NCBI RefSeq assembly: GCF_016287535.1
Contig: NZ_JAEFAJ010000004.1
Span: 1 to 64,000 of the forward strand
Direction: 5' to 3'
DNA length: 64,000 nt
Source: Ruminococcus sp.
GTDB taxonomy: Bacteria; Bacillota; Clostridia; Oscillospirales; Ruminococcaceae
Part shown: one piece after another, positions 2,648 to 43,576 of the stretch
How positions within the stretch are numbered: position 1 is the stretch's first letter
Layout of the letters: each line of letters opens with the position of its first letter
Notes under the pieces: model-generated
What the model saw: only the letters and a program-made list of their open reading frames with translations
The model's database searches: none
Told to the model about the DNA's origin: nothing
Position numbers and translations under genes: made by a program

Positions 2648-2794
2648 ACTAATTAAGATTTCTCCAAATTTTAATATCCCCTGAAAGGCAGTCGGTGAAA
2701 ATCGGCTGTCTTTTCATTTTTTTCAGAAAATGATATAATATATGTGACCATATCATACTCCAATGCGTGTCTATAGTGAAAGGAGCTGATGAAG

Positions 2795-3268
2795 ATGCAA
2801 AAATGCGGCTGCGCTCGTGAGGCGGTCGAGAGATACGGCGATATGCTGTACAGGATATGTCTGCTTTCTCTGAAGAATACTGCCGACGCAGAGGACGCTG
2901 TGCAGGAGACATTAATAAAATACGTACAGAAGTCTCCCGATTTCAGCGACAGCGAACATGAAAAAGCATGGCTTATAACTGTAGCCACAAACAAATGCCG
3001 TGATATGCTGAGATATCGTACAAGACACAAGACCGAAAGTGAGGAGATTCTCCTCGGTTATGCTGTAGAGAAAGAGGAAAGCGGGATACTTGACGCTCTT
3101 ATGGAGCTTCCTGAAAAGTACAAAACACCGCTCGTGCTCTTTTATATAGAAGGGTACAAGGTAGACGAGATGGCAGATATCATGGGAATAAGTCTTTCGG
3201 CAGCAAAAATGCGCTTGTCAAGAGGCAGAAAGCTGCTGGAGGAAAAATACAGAAAGGAGTATATGTAG
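2795..3268 (+). CDS. ECF-type RNA polymerase sigma factor
   Basis: A small sigma-70-family protein of about 157 residues with region 2 (AEDAVQETLIKYVQ) and region 4 (LPEKYKTPLVLFYIEGY, then a helix-turn-helix ending SAAKMRLSRGRKLL). It has only these two regions, as extracytoplasmic-function sigmas do. The ORF track starts at 2789; I prefer ATG 2795 because AGGAG at 2781 is then 9 bases away. The stop is followed after one base by the start of a membrane protein likely to be its anti-sigma partner. A possible promoter (TTTTCA, 17 bases, TATAAT at 2734) lies upstream. Its target genes cannot be read from the sequence. Confidence 0.9.
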   Translation: MQKCGCAREAVERYGDMLYRICLLSLKNTADAEDAVQETLIKYVQKSPDFSDSEHEKAWLITVATNKCRDMLRYRTRHKTESEEILLGYAVEKEESGILDALMELPEKYKTPLVLFYIEGYKVDEMADIMGISLSAAKMRLSRGRKLLEEKYRKEYM

Positions 3269-3269
3269 T

Positions 3270-4820
3270 ATGGATAAGAAGCTTAAAAAAGCGGCAGATA
3301 AGATAAAAATGCCTGAGGATATGAAGGAGCGTATCATAAGGAATTGCGAGTCTCTTGAGAAGAACAATATCATACGTAAAGACAATGATGACGGATATAC
3401 GGAAGTCGCAAGCGGAATCGAGCGCGTTGAGTCAGGAAGAAACATTATCAGGACTATCAGCGCGATCGCTGCCTGCGCAGTGCTTGCAGCTGGCATTGGT
3501 ACAACGGGATTTCTGCTCCACAGACAGAAAAATAACGGGTTTGCAGACAGCGGTGTGGAGATGACCACTGTGACTACCGAGCCGGCGGCTTATAAGATAT
3601 CTCCGTTCGGAGATTTCAGGAAGTTCGACTATACTTTTAATGCGGGAATAGCGTGCTATGGCAAATATGGACCCGGAAGCATTTATAACAGGTTTGCGGA
3701 TTTCTTCAATAATTTCGACTGGGGTGAAGATACTAAGGAAATAAAAGATCCAATTGTTCTGAATGATTATGATTTTTCTATTTCATGGGATGTGAATAAC
3801 ATTGTTTCATGGATCTTTATTGCGAAAGACGGTTATGTAATATATACGGAAGATAAATACGATGACAATTTCGATAAAATCATTGAATCAAACAAAAGAT
3901 CATACCGGATAGATTTTGACGCTTTTTTAAACGGATATAACGAGATCGTTTCTATTGAGGAGCATATCACACAGAGTGATGTTGACAGTCTCATAAATGG
4001 TGAGATGACATCAGTTGAGCTGCTTGATCAGGATAATAATATGCTGTATTCAAGTAAAAATGGCGAAGGAAAAGAAAAGCTCGGTGAATTCCTGAAAAAT
4101 GATTTTGTTCCGATGCTGCTGGTAAATATGCCTGTAATTGATTATGATTCAAATTATTTAAAGTATAATATTGAATATGAATTCCGGGAAAATGATCATG
4201 AAACACGGAGGTTACAGTTTAGTATCCTTGAAAATGGTGTTGTAGGCTATTCCACATATACTGATGATGAACCTACAGGGGTTGGAAGCTATTATATTGA
4301 CCTTGACGAGTTCGGCAGCAAGCTTGAAGAGCTTGGCGCAGAAAGCAATATTACGGGAACTGAGAACAATACCAATTTGAACGAAGAGTTAAGAGTACGT
4401 GAAGAAACAGATCAGAAAATCAAAGAATGCAAGAATTGCATGGAATCACTTGCTGTTTGGCTGAAAGCTGACAGGGCAGGATTCAGCGTTTCGACATTCA
4501 ATGGCGAAAATAAGAGAGTTCTTTACAGCGATGATAAAGAAAAGCTGTTAAGCTACATTGAAAGCCATGATTTCGGCGAAAGAGACACAAAAACAGTTAT
4601 CCCCGGTGTTCCTGATGATTTCAGGGAAATAGATGATGACGGACCATTTGGGTTTGCGCTCAATATCTTTTCGGATGATACGGTGTTCGGTGACGGCAGG
4701 TTTGCATTTACAAGAGATATGAGATATGCAGTTTATTATTACGGCGGAGTTGCTAAATATGTGGAAGTGGTCGAACTACCCGATGCAGAACAATTGAATT
4801 TTTTATATGATATGGATTAA
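3270..4820 (+). CDS. Membrane protein, probable anti-sigma partner of the ECF sigma
   Basis: A 516-residue protein. The first 60 residues are basic and cytoplasmic (MDKKLKKAADKIKMPEDM). One transmembrane segment follows (about 60-83, ISAIAACAVLAAGI), then a large extracytoplasmic part rich in Asp, Glu, Asn and Tyr that I do not recognise. It starts one base after the sigma-factor stop, so the two are probably translationally coupled. Position and topology fit an anti-sigma factor that holds the sigma at the membrane and senses something outside; this role is inference. The C-terminal half looks richer in A+T than neighbouring genes, so it may have a different history. A strong hairpin terminator follows. 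Confidence 0.65.
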   Translation: MDKKLKKAADKIKMPEDMKERIIRNCESLEKNNIIRKDNDDGYTEVASGIERVESGRNIIRTISAIAACAVLAAGIGTTGFLLHRQKNNGFADSGVEMTTVTTEPAAYKISPFGDFRKFDYTFNAGIACYGKYGPGSIYNRFADFFNNFDWGEDTKEIKDPIVLNDYDFSISWDVNNIVSWIFIAKDGYVIYTEDKYDDNFDKIIESNKRSYRIDFDAFLNGYNEIVSIEEHITQSDVDSLINGEMTSVELLDQDNNMLYSSKNGEGKEKLGEFLKNDFVPMLLVNMPVIDYDSNYLKYNIEYEFRENDHETRRLQFSILENGVVGYSTYTDDEPTGVGSYYIDLDEFGSKLEELGAESNITGTENNTNLNEELRVREETDQKIKECKNCMESLAVWLKADRAGFSVSTFNGENKRVLYSDDKEKLLSYIESHDFGERDTKTVIPGVPDDFREIDDDGPFGFALNIFSDDTVFGDGRFAFTRDMRYAVYYYGGVAKYVEVVELPDAEQLNFLYDMD

Positions 4821-4826
4821 AATAAA

Positions 4827-4860
4827 CAACCGCACATCGTAAGATGTGCGGTTGTCTTTT
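4827..4860. terminator. Bidirectional terminator
   Basis: A perfect 12-bp stem (CAACCGCACATC / GATGTGCGGTTG) with loop GTAA has a T-rich flank on the plus side (TCTTTT) and an A-rich flank on the other. It can end both the anti-sigma-like gene and the convergent AraC gene. Confidence 0.85.
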
Positions 4861-14344: not shown

Positions 14345-16225
14345 ATGAAAATGACAAGATGTCCCGAAAAGCATCTTTATGATGCTGATAAATACGAGAC
14401 CTGTCCCTACTGCTCAGGAGAAAACGGAGCGGCAGAGCGTGGTAAAGCTCCCAAGAAAGCAAAGATCGTGAAGGTAAGGGCTGTAAAGGCTCATCCCCCT
14501 GTTGAAGCAGAGGTAAAGCCGGTAGAAGCAAAGCCCGTACAAAAGCCTGTTGAAAATATGCCCGAAGCTCCCAAAAAGGAAGTCAAGGCAGAGGAAAAGA
14601 AGCCTGAGCCTCCCAAAAAGGAAGTCAAGGCAGAAGAAAAGAAGCCGGAAGTTCCCAAAAAGGAAGTCAAGGCAGAAGAAAAGAAGCCGGAGCCTCCCAA
14701 AAGGGAAGTCAAGGCAGAAGAAAAGAAGCCGGAAGTTCCCAAAAAAGAAGTAAAGGCAGAGGAAAAGAAGCCGGAAGCTCCTAAAAAAGAAGTAAAGGCA
14801 GAAGAAAAGAAGCCGGAGCCTCCCAAAAAGGAAGTCAAGTCAGAAGAAAAGAAGCCGGAAGCTCCTAAAAAAGAAGTAAAGGCAGAGGAAAAGAAGCCGG
14901 AAGCTCCCAAAAAGGACGTAAAGGCAGAGGAAAAGAAGCCGGAAGCTCCTAAAAAAGAAGTAAAGGCAGAGGAAAAGAAGCCAGAAGCTCCCAAAAAGGA
15001 CGTAAAGGCAGAGGAAAAGAAGCCGGAGCCTCTCAAAAAGGACGTAAAGGCAGAGGAAAAGAAGCCGGAGCCTCCTAAAAAGGAAGCCAAGGCAGAGGAA
15101 AAGAAGCCGGAGCCTCCTAAAAAGGAAGTAAAGGCAGAGGAAAAGAAGCCGGAAGCTCCTAAAAAGGAAGTCAAGGCAGAGGAAAAGAAGCCGGAAGCTC
15201 CCCAAAAGGAAGTCAAGGCAGAGGAAAAGAAGCCGGAAGCTCCCCAAAAGGAAGTCAAGGCAGAGGAAAAGAAGCCGGAGCTTCCCGAAAAGGAAGTCAA
15301 GGCAGAAGAAAAGAAATCCGAAGCTGATCTCAAGGACGATTACGAGAAATACGGCGATCTTATCCATGATGAGAATATCGAGATAGATGATGTTTACAAT
15401 ATGGCTATCGACAAGAACGGTACCCTTGTAAAGTATGTAGGTACTACCGAAGCCATTACTATCCCTGACAAGGTAAATGTCATAGGAAAATATGCTTTCC
15501 GCGGAAACGAGACAGTAAAGCGTATCGTCATGTCGGACAGCGTCCGTGTTATAGATAAATTTGCATTCTGTCACTGCTTCAACCTCGAAGAGATAGTTTT
15601 TTCACGGAATCTTGAATCCATAGGCGAAAACGCATTCCTGAAATGCCTTAATCTCAAGGAACTCAGCTTCCCTGAGTCACTTAAAAGGATAGGCAAGGGC
15701 GCTTTCGGACGCTGCAATTCCCTTGAAAGTGTTATACTGCCGGCTTATCTGCAAAAGATAAGTGATCTTATGTTCTTTTCATGCAAGCGTCTCAGAAGAG
15801 TTGTTTTCTCAGGTGCGGTGGAAGCCATAGGAAACGCGGCTTTTTCAGAGTGCTACAGTCTTAAAAAGGTCATTATCTCGGATTCAGTGGTAACTATCGG
15901 TGAAAGTGCATTTTCATGGTGCAGATCCCTGGAGTCAGTGACTATTCCGGACAATGTTAAGACTATCAGCAACTGGGCGTTTTACGGCTGTCAGAATCTT
16001 ATGGATCTGAAAATAAGTATGTATACAAAGGACATCAAGGAGGACGCATTCTGCGGCTGTGAGAGCCTTTGCAATATTAATATCAGCGAGTTTGAAGATA
16101 AGAATATCCCGCTTGACCTTATAAGAAAAGGCCACAAGCAGACCATAAAGATACTTAAACAGATAAACCGTAAAAAAGCGGAGCGCTATGCCCGCGAGCA
16201 CGGTTTCAGTACATTGTTTATATAA
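14345..16225 (+). CDS. Zinc-ribbon protein with 18 Lys/Glu/Pro repeats and BspA-type LRR domain
   Basis: 626 residues in three parts. Residues 1-25 form a small zinc-ribbon-like segment (CPEKH...CPYC). Residues 73-324 are 18 tandem copies of a 14-residue unit, consensus PEAPKKEVKAEEKK, highly charged and probably extended or helical. Residues about 340-626 are BspA-like leucine-rich repeats (LRR_5) with the pattern IGxxAFxxCxSLxxVxIPxxV. There is no signal peptide, so it is probably cytoplasmic; the repeat could be a spacer. LRR_5 domains usually mediate protein contacts. A second zinc-ribbon/LRR protein without the repeat is at 56568-57710. The function is unknown. Confidence 0.85.
   Translation: MKMTRCPEKHLYDADKYETCPYCSGENGAAERGKAPKKAKIVKVRAVKAHPPVEAEVKPVEAKPVQKPVENMPEAPKKEVKAEEKKPEPPKKEVKAEEKKPEVPKKEVKAEEKKPEPPKREVKAEEKKPEVPKKEVKAEEKKPEAPKKEVKAEEKKPEPPKKEVKSEEKKPEAPKKEVKAEEKKPEAPKKDVKAEEKKPEAPKKEVKAEEKKPEAPKKDVKAEEKKPEPLKKDVKAEEKKPEPPKKEAKAEEKKPEPPKKEVKAEEKKPEAPKKEVKAEEKKPEAPQKEVKAEEKKPEAPQKEVKAEEKKPELPEKEVKAEEKKSEADLKDDYEKYGDLIHDENIEIDDVYNMAIDKNGTLVKYVGTTEAITIPDKVNVIGKYAFRGNETVKRIVMSDSVRVIDKFAFCHCFNLEEIVFSRNLESIGENAFLKCLNLKELSFPESLKRIGKGAFGRCNSLESVILPAYLQKISDLMFFSCKRLRRVVFSGAVEAIGNAAFSECYSLKKVIISDSVVTIGESAFSWCRSLESVTIPDNVKTISNWAFYGCQNLMDLKISMYTKDIKEDAFCGCESLCNINISEFEDKNIPLDLIRKGHKQTIKILKQINRKKAERYAREHGFSTLFI
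14561..15316 (+). repeat. Eighteen tandem 42-bp repeats inside the LRR protein gene
   Basis: Each unit encodes 14 residues. Units differ mainly at the third residue (Ala, Pro, Val, Leu) and at E/D of EVK/DVK. High nucleotide identity between units suggests recent expansion and likely copy-number variation between strains. Confidence 0.95.
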
Positions 16226-38409: not shown

Positions 38410-38438
38410 TTGACAAATCACTATATATGGAGTAAAAT
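38410..38438 (+). promoter_or_regulatory. Sigma-A promoter of the dockerin/radical SAM operon
   Basis: TTGACA, 17 bases, TAAAAT. A leader of about 110 bases without recognised structure follows to a strong ribosome site (GAGAGGAGAGG). Confidence 0.7.
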
Positions 38439-38554
38439 ATAATTAACTACGAGAAGCGGAGCTCTGTATGGGAAACAGAAGGTCCGTTTTCACGGAAATA
38501 TAAATACTATGGCGTAAAAAAAGCACTGTTAAATTATGAGAGGAGAGGTAAAAA

Positions 38555-39391
38555 ATGAAAAAAACCATCTATACTGTTATGACTGCGGCTATGTTTGCAG
38601 CGGCAAATCTGTCGTCACTTCCCGCCGGCTGTGCAGAGAATGAAGGAATGAACCGCCCGAAGGTAGACCCTGTTGAGACGATCACTCTGTCAGACAGCGA
38701 ATGGGATCTGGAAAAGGGATATGAAAAGGAGCAGAAGAATCCTATTACCACGACCACACTGACAAATCTTACCAACAAGACAACACAGACTCTTTACGGC
38801 GCTCCGTGGATGTTCGGTACGACTACAACGCCTACAACATCGGATCTTGACTATCTGACTGCAACGACTACTCAGACTCTTTACGGTCCGCCATGGGTAT
38901 TCGGCTCCACAACGACTACTACAGTAAGCGACCCTGACGATGGTGAGAATGTTGATACCAAGATGAAGGGCGATGTGAACGGCGATGAGATCGTTGATAC
39001 ATTTGACGCTATAGCTCTCAGAAGAGCCATACTCTTCGGCGAATACAAGGACAAGAGGGCGAAGCTCCTCAGCGATATCAATTCCGACGGCAAGATCGAT
39101 GTTTCAGACCTTGTTCTTCTCCAGAGATTCCTTCTCGGAGCTATCAAGGACTTCCGTGAGTTTGACAACAGCAGTATCAAGACCACAAAGACTACCGCAA
39201 AGCTGAAGGATGACCCGATATTCACAACTGAAACTACTACATATGATCCGAGAGGCGATGTTGTTATATCACTTTACGGTATAAAGCCTTCTATCGAGAT
39301 ATCAAAGGAAGCTGTAGAGCAGGCTGTGAGGGATATCGAGGACGCCGGCGCAATACTTGATGAATCAGAGCGCGAGGAAGAGGAAGACTGA
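38555..39391 (+). CDS. Secreted dockerin protein with LYGxPWxFG repeats, candidate radical SAM substrate
   Basis: 278 residues. A signal peptide (about 1-27, ending SSLPAGCA) is followed by a linker holding two near-identical motifs in Thr-rich surroundings: TTQTLYGAPWMFG (76-88) and TTQTLYGPPWVFG (105-117), exactly 29 residues apart. A canonical two-repeat dockerin lies at about 139-200 (GDVNGDEIVDTFDAIALRR, DINSDGKIDVSDLVLLQRFLLG). After a second Thr linker comes a third, looser copy (ISLYGIKP, about 238-245) and a Glu-rich tail. There is no catalytic domain. A radical SAM/SPASM gene starts one base after the stop. I infer a scaffold-docked protein whose aromatic Tyr/Trp motifs are modified by that enzyme. 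Confidence 0.85.
   Translation: MKKTIYTVMTAAMFAAANLSSLPAGCAENEGMNRPKVDPVETITLSDSEWDLEKGYEKEQKNPITTTTLTNLTNKTTQTLYGAPWMFGTTTTPTTSDLDYLTATTTQTLYGPPWVFGSTTTTTVSDPDDGENVDTKMKGDVNGDEIVDTFDAIALRRAILFGEYKDKRAKLLSDINSDGKIDVSDLVLLQRFLLGAIKDFREFDNSSIKTTKTTAKLKDDPIFTTETTTYDPRGDVVISLYGIKPSIEISKEAVEQAVRDIEDAGAILDESEREEEED
38780..38818 (+). repeat. First LYGxPW repeat unit
   Basis: Encodes TTQTLYGAPWMFG, residues 76-88 of the dockerin protein. Confidence 0.9.
38867..38905 (+). repeat. Second LYGxPW repeat unit
   Basis: Encodes TTQTLYGPPWVFG, residues 105-117. It differs from the first at only two residues (Ala to Pro, Met to Val) while the flanking linker differs more, which points to selection on the motif. 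Confidence 0.9.
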
Positions 39392-39392
39392 T

Positions 39393-40466
39393 ATGCTCGA
39401 TGTCAACATGAAACGCGCTCATCTTGAACAGATGAGAGACTATCGCAAGGCTCTTATGAAAAAACCTCAGCTGCGCAACCTGTTCCTTGAGCTTACTCTT
39501 CGCTGCAACGAGAGATGTCTTCACTGCGGAAGCAAATGCGGTGATGTTCCTTCGGACGAACTGACAGTTGAGCAGTATCGTCAGTTCCTCACACAACTGA
39601 AAGAGGATATGTCAGTAGAGGGAAAAATGCTGGACATAACCGGAGGAGAGCCGCTTCTCAGAAAGGACTTCTTCGATATCCTCGGAGCTGCAAATGAACT
39701 GGGCTTTCAGTGGGGCATGACCACAAACGGTACACTTATCGATGACAATATCGCACGTGAGCTGAAAAGAGTGGGAATGAAGACTGTTTCCATAAGTATC
39801 GACGGTCTTGAAGATACACATGACGCTTTCAGAAGAACTCCCGGCGGTTATAAAAAAGCAATGAACGGTATCGAGTGTCTGCTGCGCGAGGGCGGATTTG
39901 AGCACGTTCAGGTCACGACAGTAGTTACTCATAAGAGTATCAGCGAGCTTGACGAGCTTTTCAGAATATTCAACGAAATGGATATCGACTCATGGAGAGT
40001 CGTTAATATGGAGCCTATGGGACGCGCAAAGGACTTCCCGGAGCTTCTTCTTACGGACGACGATTACAGAACGCTTTTTGAGTTCATCAGGAACAAGCGT
40101 ATAGCAGGAGAGCCAGTAGCTTACGGCTGCAGCCATTACCTCGGCATGGAGTACGAGCGCGAGGTGCGCGACTGGTATTATCTCTGCACGGCAGGTCTGT
40201 ACACTGCAAGTATAAGCACTAACGGTGATATCGTTGCCTGTCTTGATATCGAACGCCGTCCGGAGTTCGTACAGGGAAATATCCTCCGGGACAGATTCAG
40301 CGATGTATGGAAGAATAAATTCCAGATATTCCGCCGTGACCTTTCTGATGACAATGCTGTCTGTCAGAAGTGCGACCAGAAGGAGTTCTGTCACGGAGAC
40401 TCATATCACAGCTGGGATTTTGACAAAAACGAACCTCAGCTCTGCTTCAAGGACATACTGTTCTGA
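39393..40466 (+). CDS. Radical SAM/SPASM peptide-modifying enzyme
   Basis: 357 residues. The radical SAM cluster motif is CNERCLHC (C-x3-C-x2-C), followed by a GGEPLL motif. The C-terminus has a SPASM pattern: C-x12-G-x4-C (CTAGLYTASISTNGDIVAC), then CQKCDQKEFC and a late Cys (QLCF). The usual fourth Cys of the C-x2-C-x5-C-x3-C run is Ser here. SPASM enzymes mature peptides and proteins by radical chemistry. The track start at 39357 overlaps the dockerin gene; ATG 39393, one base after its stop and behind AGGAAGAGGAAG, is better. There is no transporter or dedicated protease in the same operon. The substrate is inferred to be the upstream dockerin protein. Confidence 0.88.
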   Translation: MLDVNMKRAHLEQMRDYRKALMKKPQLRNLFLELTLRCNERCLHCGSKCGDVPSDELTVEQYRQFLTQLKEDMSVEGKMLDITGGEPLLRKDFFDILGAANELGFQWGMTTNGTLIDDNIARELKRVGMKTVSISIDGLEDTHDAFRRTPGGYKKAMNGIECLLREGGFEHVQVTTVVTHKSISELDELFRIFNEMDIDSWRVVNMEPMGRAKDFPELLLTDDDYRTLFEFIRNKRIAGEPVAYGCSHYLGMEYEREVRDWYYLCTAGLYTASISTNGDIVACLDIERRPEFVQGNILRDRFSDVWKNKFQIFRRDLSDDNAVCQKCDQKEFCHGDSYHSWDFDKNEPQLCFKDILF

Positions 40467-40499: not shown

Positions 40500-40542
40500 A
40501 ACAGCCATAAAGAAGTTTTTACTTCTTTATGGCTGTTTTGAT
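40500..40542. terminator. Bidirectional terminator after the radical SAM gene
   Basis: Perfect stem ACAGCCATAAAGAAGT / ACTTCTTTATGGCTGT (16 bp) with loop TTTT, then TTTGATT. It separates the radical SAM operon from the convergent M16C peptidase gene. Confidence 0.85.
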
Positions 40543-40552
40543 TATTACCGGT

Positions 40553-43405
40553 TCAGGTCAGGCTCTCGGCTGTAAGACCGAGACCTTCCATTGCGGCTTC
40601 GCTGCCCATTACGCATATACCTCCGAAGCTGCGGAGCTTCTCTGCTGCTTCTGTGAGCTGGCTGGCGGTAACTCCGAGCATACGCTTTCTTTCAGCTGCC
40701 CTTTCTTCAAAGGTGATGCCTCTGAACCAGAGTCCGTCAGCCTGACGGCTCTTGTTGCCGTCTGACATCAGGGGTTCGTCCTTGGCGATGCTGCTGATGA
40801 TATACTGTGTTATATCGGGCTCTCCGTCGCAGTAGCCCTTTATGAAGTCTGCTGATCCGCGGTATGTATCTATAGTAGCTGCAGGGGAGGGGTCACGGTA
40901 TGAATAGAAGGTCTGCTCTCCCTTTGCGTCCATGAAAGCGCCCGTGCCGTAAGCTCCGCCCTTTACTCTTACCTCGTTCCAGAGGTATTCGAGGGAGAGG
41001 GCACGGAAGAGAACGCTGCGTACAGCCTTGTCAGCTGAATTGTCAGGGAAAGCCATTGCCGAGTAGGATACGCCTGAGGGTATTATGATACCCTGTTTTT
41101 CGGGTATATCAAGTTTGAAGCCCATTTCCTCGCTTGCCGGCTTTTCACCGGTGGGGAGAGCGTTCAGAAGGGGCTCTATCGAGACGTTGCCTGTGCTTGT
41201 TACGCTTGCGCAGAGACGCGATGTGCAGAAGATACGGCTGAGTGACTTTATGGTTTCTGTCAGCTTTTCCGGAGCCTTTACTGCTTCGTGAAGGCGCTTG
41301 TATGCCTCATAGCCCGAAACAAGCTCGGAAACGGCAGCTTCTGCCGACAGCGCTGCGCGGACGCGGCTCATTGAGTAGCTATGACCGTTTGCGATAATTG
41401 ACTGCTTGAAATTCTCGTCCGACTGCATCAGGAGCTCGCGGACGGTATCATCGTTATCAAAACTTGTCTCTGTGAGTATTTCAGCTATGAGTTCAAGTGC
41501 GTCAGTAGTGTTTCTGTCAAGGAAGCGTGTGCTCACCATGAAGTATGGGGTACATCTGTCGGTAACGCCTTTGGGTGAGAATACCTTTATGGAATAGATT
41601 ATCTCGCCGAGAGTACCTGTTATCCTGCGCTGTAGTTCAGCGGCTGAGCTTCTTTTTGTGGGCAGCTCTCCGTAAAGCTCTGTCGCTGCTGCAGCGGCGG
41701 ACAGCTCATCTTCAGAGAGGTCAGAAAGGGAGAAATAGAGATTAAGCGCTGTTATGCCGTTATCTGAGGCAGGGTGGCGGAGTATGGTAACATTTCCGCA
41801 GCTGTCTGTCACAGTCTCAAACGGGAGCGGCTTGTCGCTTACCTCGGAAATAGCAAGATGAGGCATGGTGGCGAGCTGATCGGGAGTATCTACGGACTGC
41901 TGCCACTCGTCAAGCTTTCTGTTCTGTTCAACGATGACCGAGCGCTCCTCACAGGCAAGACGGTCGATTACCTCAGCTATGCGCTTTTCCTCGGCTTTTT
42001 TCTGTTCCTCTCCGTAGGTCCGTGAGGGGAGAAGGTACAGCTCGCCGCGGCTGTTCTCATCAAGGAGCCATTCTTTGAGGAGCTCCTCAAAATAGCCTGT
42101 GTCAGCCTTTTTGCGGAGAGAATCATATACCTCGCCGAGTTCAAGGTAGGAGAGGGGGTCACCACCGTAAAGCCATGCTGATAGGGCGGAAATATTCCTT
42201 GTGAGACCTCTCGGCTCTCCGCCTGCACGGAAGCGGAACTCATGGCGGTCTATAGCAGCTGCAAGGAGCTTACGGTCGATACCTTTCTCACAGAGCTCCG
42301 TAACAGCGGCGCGGACAGCCTCTTTCAGCCTGCTGCAGTTCTCCTCGTCGGTATTGTTTATACAGAGACAGCCGAATGGCTGGAATATGCCGTCGCTTAC
42401 TTCAAGTGAAACGTCGAGGCAGAGTCCCGTATCGAGGACGGCACGTTTCAGGGGAGCGTCGTTTGAGCCTGTAAGGGCTTCGCCGAGCACGGCGGCTGCC
42501 GTTATCCTTTCGCGTTCCTGATAGCTGCCGAGTACCTTTCCGATGACATAATATGTATGCGCAGCTTCCTCCTCGTCTGCGGATATCTCATAGTACGACT
42601 TTCTGACGGAAGCTTTTATCGGTTTCTGTAAAGGTATCTCGCTCATTACCTCACGTCTGCCGAAGCGGCTGAGGTACTCTCCGTCGATAAGTCCGAGCAC
42701 CGCGTCTATATTCACCGGACCGTCAAGGTATATATATGAATTTGAGGGGTGGTAGTAAGTCCTGTGACCCTCTATGAACTGCTCATAAGTAAGGCTGGTA
42801 ATGGCTTCCGGAAGTCCGCCGGATTCAAAGCGGTAGCAGCTGTCGGGGTATAGCACGTTCATTATCTCTGATTCCATACGGCTGTATACAGATGACATAG
42901 CGCCCTTCATCTCGTTGAAGACTACTCCCTTGTATACCGGAGTATCAGATTCACTGCGCATTTCTATGTGCCAGCCCTCCTGATAGAAGATGTTGGGGTT
43001 GTAGTATATGGCAGGATCAAACACAGCGTCGAGGTAGACCCTTGTGAGGTTCATGAAGTCCGTATCGTTTCTGCTGGAAACCGGGAATACGGTCTTGTCG
43101 GGATAGGTCATCGCGTTGAGGAATGTATTCATGGTACCCTTCATAAGTTCAAGGAAAGGCTCCTTCACGGGGTACTTCTTTGAGCCGCCGAGGACGGAGT
43201 GCTCAAGTATGTGGAATATTCCCGTATCGTCCGAGGGCGGAGTCCTGAAAGCTATTGAGAAGAGCTTGTTCTCACCGTCGTTCTTCATCCATATCAGTCT
43301 TGCTCCTGTCTTTTCGTGGCACATCTCTATGAGCTGCGAACCACTGTCAGGGGCAGGAGCGGTGCGTACAACCTTAAAGCCGTGTATAGTATCGTTTATA
43401 TTCAT
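40553..43405 (-). CDS. M16C-family zinc metallopeptidase (presequence-protease type)
   Basis: About 950 residues with the inverted zinc motif HILEH (HxxEH) near residue 65, followed by SVLGGSKKYPVKEPFLELM, typical of the M16C/PreP group; the later Glu ligand region (GVVFNEMKGAMSS) is also present. These enzymes degrade unfolded peptides in a closed chamber. There is no signal peptide, so it is cytoplasmic. ATG 43405 has AGGAGG at the correct distance; the track start 43429 does not. It converges on the radical SAM gene, so any link to that system is speculative. Confidence 0.92.
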   Translation of the reverse strand: MNINDTIHGFKVVRTAPAPDSGSQLIEMCHEKTGARLIWMKNDGENKLFSIAFRTPPSDDTGIFHILEHSVLGGSKKYPVKEPFLELMKGTMNTFLNAMTYPDKTVFPVSSRNDTDFMNLTRVYLDAVFDPAIYYNPNIFYQEGWHIEMRSESDTPVYKGVVFNEMKGAMSSVYSRMESEIMNVLYPDSCYRFESGGLPEAITSLTYEQFIEGHRTYYHPSNSYIYLDGPVNIDAVLGLIDGEYLSRFGRREVMSEIPLQKPIKASVRKSYYEISADEEEAAHTYYVIGKVLGSYQERERITAAAVLGEALTGSNDAPLKRAVLDTGLCLDVSLEVSDGIFQPFGCLCINNTDEENCSRLKEAVRAAVTELCEKGIDRKLLAAAIDRHEFRFRAGGEPRGLTRNISALSAWLYGGDPLSYLELGEVYDSLRKKADTGYFEELLKEWLLDENSRGELYLLPSRTYGEEQKKAEEKRIAEVIDRLACEERSVIVEQNRKLDEWQQSVDTPDQLATMPHLAISEVSDKPLPFETVTDSCGNVTILRHPASDNGITALNLYFSLSDLSEDELSAAAAATELYGELPTKRSSAAELQRRITGTLGEIIYSIKVFSPKGVTDRCTPYFMVSTRFLDRNTTDALELIAEILTETSFDNDDTVRELLMQSDENFKQSIIANGHSYSMSRVRAALSAEAAVSELVSGYEAYKRLHEAVKAPEKLTETIKSLSRIFCTSRLCASVTSTGNVSIEPLLNALPTGEKPASEEMGFKLDIPEKQGIIIPSGVSYSAMAFPDNSADKAVRSVLFRALSLEYLWNEVRVKGGAYGTGAFMDAKGEQTFYSYRDPSPAATIDTYRGSADFIKGYCDGEPDITQYIISSIAKDEPLMSDGNKSRQADGLWFRGITFEERAAERKRMLGVTASQLTEAAEKLRSFGGICVMGSEAAMEGLGLTAESLT

Positions 43406-43576
43406 ACAGTACCTCCTGAGTATATTCATATTATGATTATACCATTTTTACCGCATTTATGCAAGAGAAGTTTCAGACGCACAACATTATTCCGTCAACT
43501 GTGCAGCGGCGTACAGCTTGTGTATGTTTGATCTGAGCCGGGCTGTGAAAAAACAGCAACTTTTTCTCTGCGAATA

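Follow-up and report, generated by a model that had tools for sequence, protein, structure and literature searches.

The locus described here lies in the window, the whole stretch of 64,000 nucleotides of Ruminococcus sp. DNA that was analysed (contig NZ_JAEFAJ010000004.1), and consists of two adjacent genes on the plus strand. The first encodes a secreted dockerin protein (P0001) and the second a radical SAM/SPASM enzyme (P0002). The features read from the locus are as follows.

38410..38438, plus strand: promoter-like TTGACA-17-TAAAAT ahead of the two-gene unit (consensus scan, 11/12 positions)
38540..38548, plus strand: ribosome-binding-like GAGGAGAGG upstream of the P0001 gene (sequence reading)
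38555..39391, plus strand: P0001, secreted dockerin protein and predicted substrate, 278 aa, with three XYG sites
38555..38632, plus strand: N-terminal signal-like stretch of P0001, MKKTIYTVMTAAMFAAANLSSLPAGC, conserved in the partner proteins of related enzymes
38792..38806, plus strand: site 1, LYGAP, residues 80-84 of P0001
38879..38893, plus strand: site 2, LYGPP, residues 109-113 of P0001
38966..39136, plus strand: dockerin, residues 138-194 of P0001, with both Ca-binding repeats (Pfam PF00404)
39272..39289, plus strand: site 3, LYGIKP, residues 240-245 of P0001; LYG(I/V)xP in the closest relatives
39374..39386, plus strand: ribosome-binding-like GAGGAAGAGGAAG within the 3′ end of the P0001 gene, suited to translational coupling (sequence reading)
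39393..40466, plus strand: P0002, radical SAM/SPASM enzyme, an outlying TIGR04133 relative, predicted to be splicease-like
39504..39527, plus strand: CNERCLHC, radical SAM cluster motif, residues 38-45 of P0002, the cysteines invariant in the alignment
40125..40169, plus strand: GCSHYLGMEYEREVR, residues 245-259 of P0002, a motif common to the other XYG-linked enzymes examined
40185..40376, plus strand: SPASM domain, residues 265-328 of P0002 (Pfam PF13186)
40500..40537, plus strand: terminator-like 17-bp hairpin with a T-rich tail, 3′ of the pair

The TGA stop of the P0001 gene ends at 39391 and the ATG of the radical SAM gene stands at 39393, leaving one base between them; the preliminary description of this DNA had correctly placed the enzyme gene there, behind a good ribosome site, which reads GAGGAAGAGGAAG. 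Promoter-like sites in the region are no more numerous than in shuffled sequence by the consensus scan, but with one such site upstream and the terminator-like hairpin downstream the pair looks like a two-gene operon. Convergent with it is a large gene for an M16-type peptidase (40553-43429), and the same neighbour is found in loci L002 and L003.

P0001 had been presented as a secreted protein with a complete dockerin and no enzyme domain, and this reading holds: the N-terminus is signal-like, the dockerin is a full Dockerin_1 domain (42.2 bits against a cut-off of 22.9) and the Pfam scan gave no domain besides it. The two Ca-binding repeats, together with the many dockerin proteins of the host (about 70 dockerin-like matches in the window genome, whose nearest named relatives are the R. 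flavefaciens group), suggest that P0001 is a cellulosomal protein, and cohesin binding is predicted. Elsewhere in the window, positions 31-2595 encode a secreted dockerin protein in whose translation xylanase-like and polysaccharide-deacetylase-like parts can be read, as fits a cellulosome producer, and positions 14345-16225 encode a protein whose 42-bp tandem repeat, present in about 18 copies (a 14-aa unit like EKKPEAPKKEVKAE), precedes BspA-like repeats.

The linkers of P0001 are Thr-rich, and the protein has LYG starting at residues 80, 109 and 240. The first two belong to the TTQTLYG repeats already recognised from the sequence and are, as was claimed, exactly 29 residues apart. At least two YGxP arose in 16 of 100,000 shuffles of P0001, and the other dockerin reading frames of the same genome (29 ORFs, 19,219 aa) contain one YGxP and no YGPP. 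The sole cysteine of the protein ends the signal region (SLPAGC); a thioether RiPP (sactipeptide or ranthipeptide) is ruled out, there being no Cys beyond that region. By sequence and Pfam, P0001 has neither a Nif11 nor a nitrile-hydratase-like leader, only the signal-like N-terminus and the dockerin.

Relatives of the enzyme were sought by scanning one genome per species, and the best 80 of 212 were used; their loci are from Ruminococcus, in the R. flavefaciens group, and include FD-1 and 007c. Every one of these best 80 of 212 has an upstream partner with at least one YGxP (80/80), and in 67 of the 80 the partner has at least two. The gap between partner and enzyme genes in this set is usually below 15 bp, most commonly 3 or 1 bp, with some overlaps. 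Only enzymes of 66% identity or more are in the set, so the loci represent one lineage and not 80 independent events. Across 125 genomes of the genus the enzyme occurs in 62, and the pattern QxVYGPP is found in 45 of these 62 against 3 of the 63 others (Fisher p 3e-16, not corrected for kinship). The three exceptions without an enzyme call comprise a 3-kb truncated contig with real partners (G004, L158), a genome in which the match is a zinc-ribbon protein (G022, L161) and one in which no YGPP protein was seen (G017). In the window genome itself QxVYGPP is absent, the sites there being QTLYG and ISLYG.

The pairing of enzyme and partner is thus highly probable, and the earlier suggestion that the dockerin protein is the substrate of the enzyme very probably correct, no enzyme without a motif protein having been found among the best 80 of 212 relatives. 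YGPP might instead be an ordinary binding or cell-wall motif, with the radical SAM enzyme acting on an unrelated target, as could be argued from the YGPPP of a zinc-ribbon protein beside argC, which occurs once in a genome without the enzyme (L161). We consider this very improbable given the adjacency in all 80 loci, the genus-wide co-occurrence and the recurrence of the motif beside TIGR04133 enzymes of other phyla.

Two further kinds of YGPP protein were seen in these genomes. The zinc-ribbon protein, with a conserved Q(C/I)VYGPPP, was found at L156, L157, L161 and L163, directly before an argC-like gene in two loci, and its motif may be due to chance or mark another substrate. Lipoproteins encoded away from the enzyme (L160 and L164) carry GCVYGPP, with VYGPP directly after the lipobox Cys, like the partners in Bacteroidota.

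A Dockerin_1 domain is present in 63 of the 80 partners (Pfam; P0001 and 79 relatives). Among the more distant partners are short lipoproteins that have several YGPP but lack a dockerin, and at some loci several partners stand in tandem. That the lipoproteins keep the repeats suggests that dockerin and lipid anchor are alternative ways of holding the repeats outside the cell. The dockerin as the target of modification was ruled out, as several partners without one retain YG sites. For a signal peptide, the partner N-terminus (MKKTxKTALTAAxFAAA) shows unusual conservation, with M1, K2, K3, T7, A11, A12 and A15 near-invariant, and 87 of the 90 ORFs with this N-terminus at the loci examined carry YGxP; it may double as a recognition element for the enzyme.

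The partner motif in the best 80 of 212 loci is X-Tyr-Gly-x-Pro, usually as several copies of QxVYGPP. Among distinct partners, Gly fills the position between Y and PP in 330 of 331 cases and Tyr the position before GPP in 330 of 330; composition alone would give 51 YG, and 365 are present, with up to nine per protein. The residue before Tyr is variable (V 160, L 50, A 19, E 10, T 6, M 5, I 1). When flanking positions are counted around YG, where Y and G are 100% by construction, Q stands at -3 in 49%, P at -4 in 33% and P at -2 in 30%; downstream, P is found at +2 in 85% and at +3 in 77%, F at +6 in 27% and W at +4 in only 10%. The motif had been given as LYGxPWxFG, which is ruled out because Y and G stay constant among relatives and W, F and the final G do not; the conserved unit is X-Y-G-x-P, and LYGxPWxFG is a local version of it. 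Nor is the third copy a looser one, as had been thought: VVISLYGIKP is common to the closest relatives of P0001 and is not degenerate.

An XYG site has a known counterpart. The enzyme PlpX excises tyramine at XYG, its natural sites being MYG and LYG, and has been used on tags such as PIRPLYGLPI (PMC10533398, PMC11002830); several splice sites per substrate are possible (PMC10373908). An invariant Tyr-Gly preceded by a variable X is what the PlpX reaction demands, which favours splicing over the crosslinking or epimerising chemistry proposed in the preliminary description; such a site is atypical of cyclophane, thioether or epimerase enzymes, and SPASM chemistries other than splicing would require either a cysteine or a second conserved residue. 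Radical SAM epimerases do occur next to repeated motifs, but epimerisation of linker residues is very hard to reconcile with an invariant Tyr-Gly pair and a free preceding residue, which that reaction does not demand.

P0002 has Radical_SAM and SPASM domains (Pfam), its M1 is invariant among aligned relatives, as are the SPASM cysteines, and an AlphaFold2 model confirms the radical SAM/SPASM fold. Its best-scoring family is TIGR04133, at 281.5 bits and so under the curated cut-off of 425; its relatives in L123 and L144 score 276.0 and 253.7 bits. Against TIGR04103, the likely splicease family to which PlpX presumably belongs, it reaches 126.6 bits (cut-off 725), lower than for heme-synthase-type families, and P0002 is therefore not a member of the PlpX family. 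In the literature PlpX is assigned to IPR026482 (PMC11002830).

In a tree of 24 radical SAM proteins, P0002 and TIGR04133 form one clade (support 100/97), and the PlpX-type group is its next neighbour with moderate support (87/86). Within the PlpX-type group falls a protein from Agathobacter (32% identical), whose flanking genes were examined and include no XYG partner; it was taken as a negative, and its position suggests that the XYG-linked enzyme families may not form a clade of their own. A G-x-YE-x3-R motif ahead of SPASM was present in all XYG-linked enzymes of the small panel examined and absent from the aligned place in the Agathobacter protein (L148), from the Tropicibacter protein (L152, GYFSPFE) and from four other radical SAM proteins. 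The shared motif cannot be placed in the P0002 model because residues 248-268, which cover most of it, have a pLDDT below 50. Elsewhere in the window genome there is one PqqD-like (RRE-type) protein over the Pfam cut-off (G000:C17:23676-23876, L168).

The nearest solved folds to P0002 are SkfB, SuiB and anSME, and SPASM enzymes of many chemistries score in the same range. Together with the pairing and the invariant tyrosine, this would also fit another Tyr-directed reaction at YGxP, either a Tyr-centred C-C or C-O crosslink of the cyclophane kind or an oxidation. A crosslink needs an acceptor, however, and no third residue is conserved as its partner; the Gly after Tyr is as invariant as the Tyr itself, and XYG is the published splice site. 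In cyclophane/triceptide systems an aromatic residue is followed two residues on by a conserved crosslink acceptor; here the tyrosine is invariant and the +2 position is Pro in 85%, not a usual acceptor. Other tyrosine chemistry is judged unlikely.

Tyramine splicing at the YG sites is the likely chemistry, an argument made from the substrate and from the XYG site that it shares with PlpX, and the whole proposal, that P0001 and P0002 are a dedicated substrate-enzyme pair performing this reaction, is on balance probable. The predicted mass change is about -135 Da per site (C8H9NO), not -2. The term RiPP precursor used in the preliminary description is a loose one for P0001, a secreted protein with several predicted sites of modification.

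Related arrangements occur beyond Ruminococcus. L144, a more distant relative belonging to the same class, has a YGPP lipoprotein adjoining its enzyme. With P0002 as the query, plasmid records gave TIGR04133 enzymes from Parabacteroides, Phocaeicola and Treponema; their partner lipoproteins carry CEYGSP, CEYGTP or CYGMP, either at the lipobox Cys or just a few residues further on, and those of Parabacteroides and Treponema were confirmed as TIGR04134. The Ruminococcus pair resembles TIGR04133/TIGR04134 in the common clade (100/97), the adjacent partner gene and the YGxP of the partner. It differs in that P0002 scores below 425 and that the partners have repeated sites and a dockerin, TIGR04134 having no match in the window genome.

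With PlpX/PlpY of Pleurocapsa the pair shares a radical SAM/SPASM enzyme, an XYG site with a free X and a natural LYG, and several sites per substrate. The plasmid search with P0002 also found a TIGR04103 enzyme from Nostoc; the Nif11 precursor at its locus has IALYGLPPELF as its C-terminal end, and after it a 71-aa ORF occupies the position of PlpY. P0002 is 29% identical to the Nostoc protein, and its SPASM domain is without the fourth Cys of that enzyme, with a Cys at 246 instead; the Nif11/nitrile-hydratase leader is lacking, and PlpY was not found, a search of the window genome with the Nostoc PlpY-position protein, run with no positive control, giving no match; the unit has no extra gene. 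The TIGR03913-type/DUF1843 systems of Azospirillum and Aureibacter also have PlpX-like enzymes with GYYGPYE beside small peptides, which differ from P0001 in being helical and having neither export signal nor dockerin. Such DUF1843 peptides are encoded at L149 (Aureibacter, 4141-4854) and L151 (Azospirillum, 2787-3242), and the three from Aureibacter have N-terminal PYG, MYA or LYA, suggesting that a Y-A variant of the site may exist. The radical SAM protein encoded on a plasmid of Tropicibacter oceani (L152) shares 47% identity with the TIGR04103 enzyme of Nostoc, but in it GYFSPFE replaces GYYGPYE; its neighbours are trypsin-like and M23 peptidase genes, with no annotated small precursor.

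In the proposed mechanism, P0001 and P0002 would form a dedicated substrate-enzyme pair in which P0002 acts in the cytoplasm on the dockerin protein before export, cutting tyramine from the backbone at the X-Tyr-Gly sites and leaving reactive groups behind. P0001 would then be secreted and its dockerin would plug into a cellulosome cohesin, where a row of covalent, reversible protease-inhibitor warheads would protect the cellulosome. This inhibitory role is the weakest step, plausible and at present tentative. The X-CO-CO-NH-Gly that would remain after splicing has the layout of ketoamide protease inhibitors, with Leu or Val as P1. Protease inhibitors that bear a dockerin are known from the cellulosomes of C. 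thermocellum and C. cellulolyticum (PMC12484212), and SERPIN-dockerins from R. flavefaciens FD-1 (PMC2721979). The serpin PinA and Dpi likewise have no enzymatic activity, reach the cellulosome by means of a dockerin and are proposed to be protective (PMC12484212); they inhibit as folded, unmodified proteins, whereas here inhibition by modified linkers is only proposed.

The main functional rival accepts the same splicing and has the ketones serve as crosslinking handles to amines on the cellulosome, the cell wall or the plant surface. Ketoamide residues are reactive and have served as ligation handles (PMC10533398), and the sites lie in flexible Thr-rich linkers of anchored proteins, up to nine YG in each. 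On the other hand, the sequence leading up to Tyr (often P/I-Q-x-V or L) looks like the non-prime side of a protease inhibitor, and inhibition of proteases by spliced products has been published (PMC10373908); a handle function seems a minor possibility. With inhibition as the function, the fullest form of the idea is a speculative one that we rate as doubtful: R. flavefaciens-type cellulosomes would carry gene-encoded, enzyme-made arrays of ketoamides, spliced dockerin proteins with multiple XYG sites acting as covalent protease inhibitors, and a lipid-anchored version would have become cellulosome-anchored by gain of a dockerin.

Our literature search found no paper linking radical SAM enzymes with dockerins in Ruminococcus and none mentioning TIGR04133/TIGR04134; Scott et al. 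2022 (Chem 8:2659), reportedly the main paper on widespread spliceases, fell outside its scope, and part of the finding may already be catalogued there. Splicing itself is already known, and the new aspect would be splicease-like enzymes that act on cellulosome-anchored proteins. If this is true, backbone splicing would extend beyond small peptide products and form part of the enzyme complex on the surface of a rumen bacterium that is a dominant fibre degrader. A group of R. flavefaciens dockerin proteins that are not enzymes would acquire a testable job, and the TIGR04133/TIGR04134 pairs of Bacteroidota and Treponema would be predicted to splice their lipoproteins.
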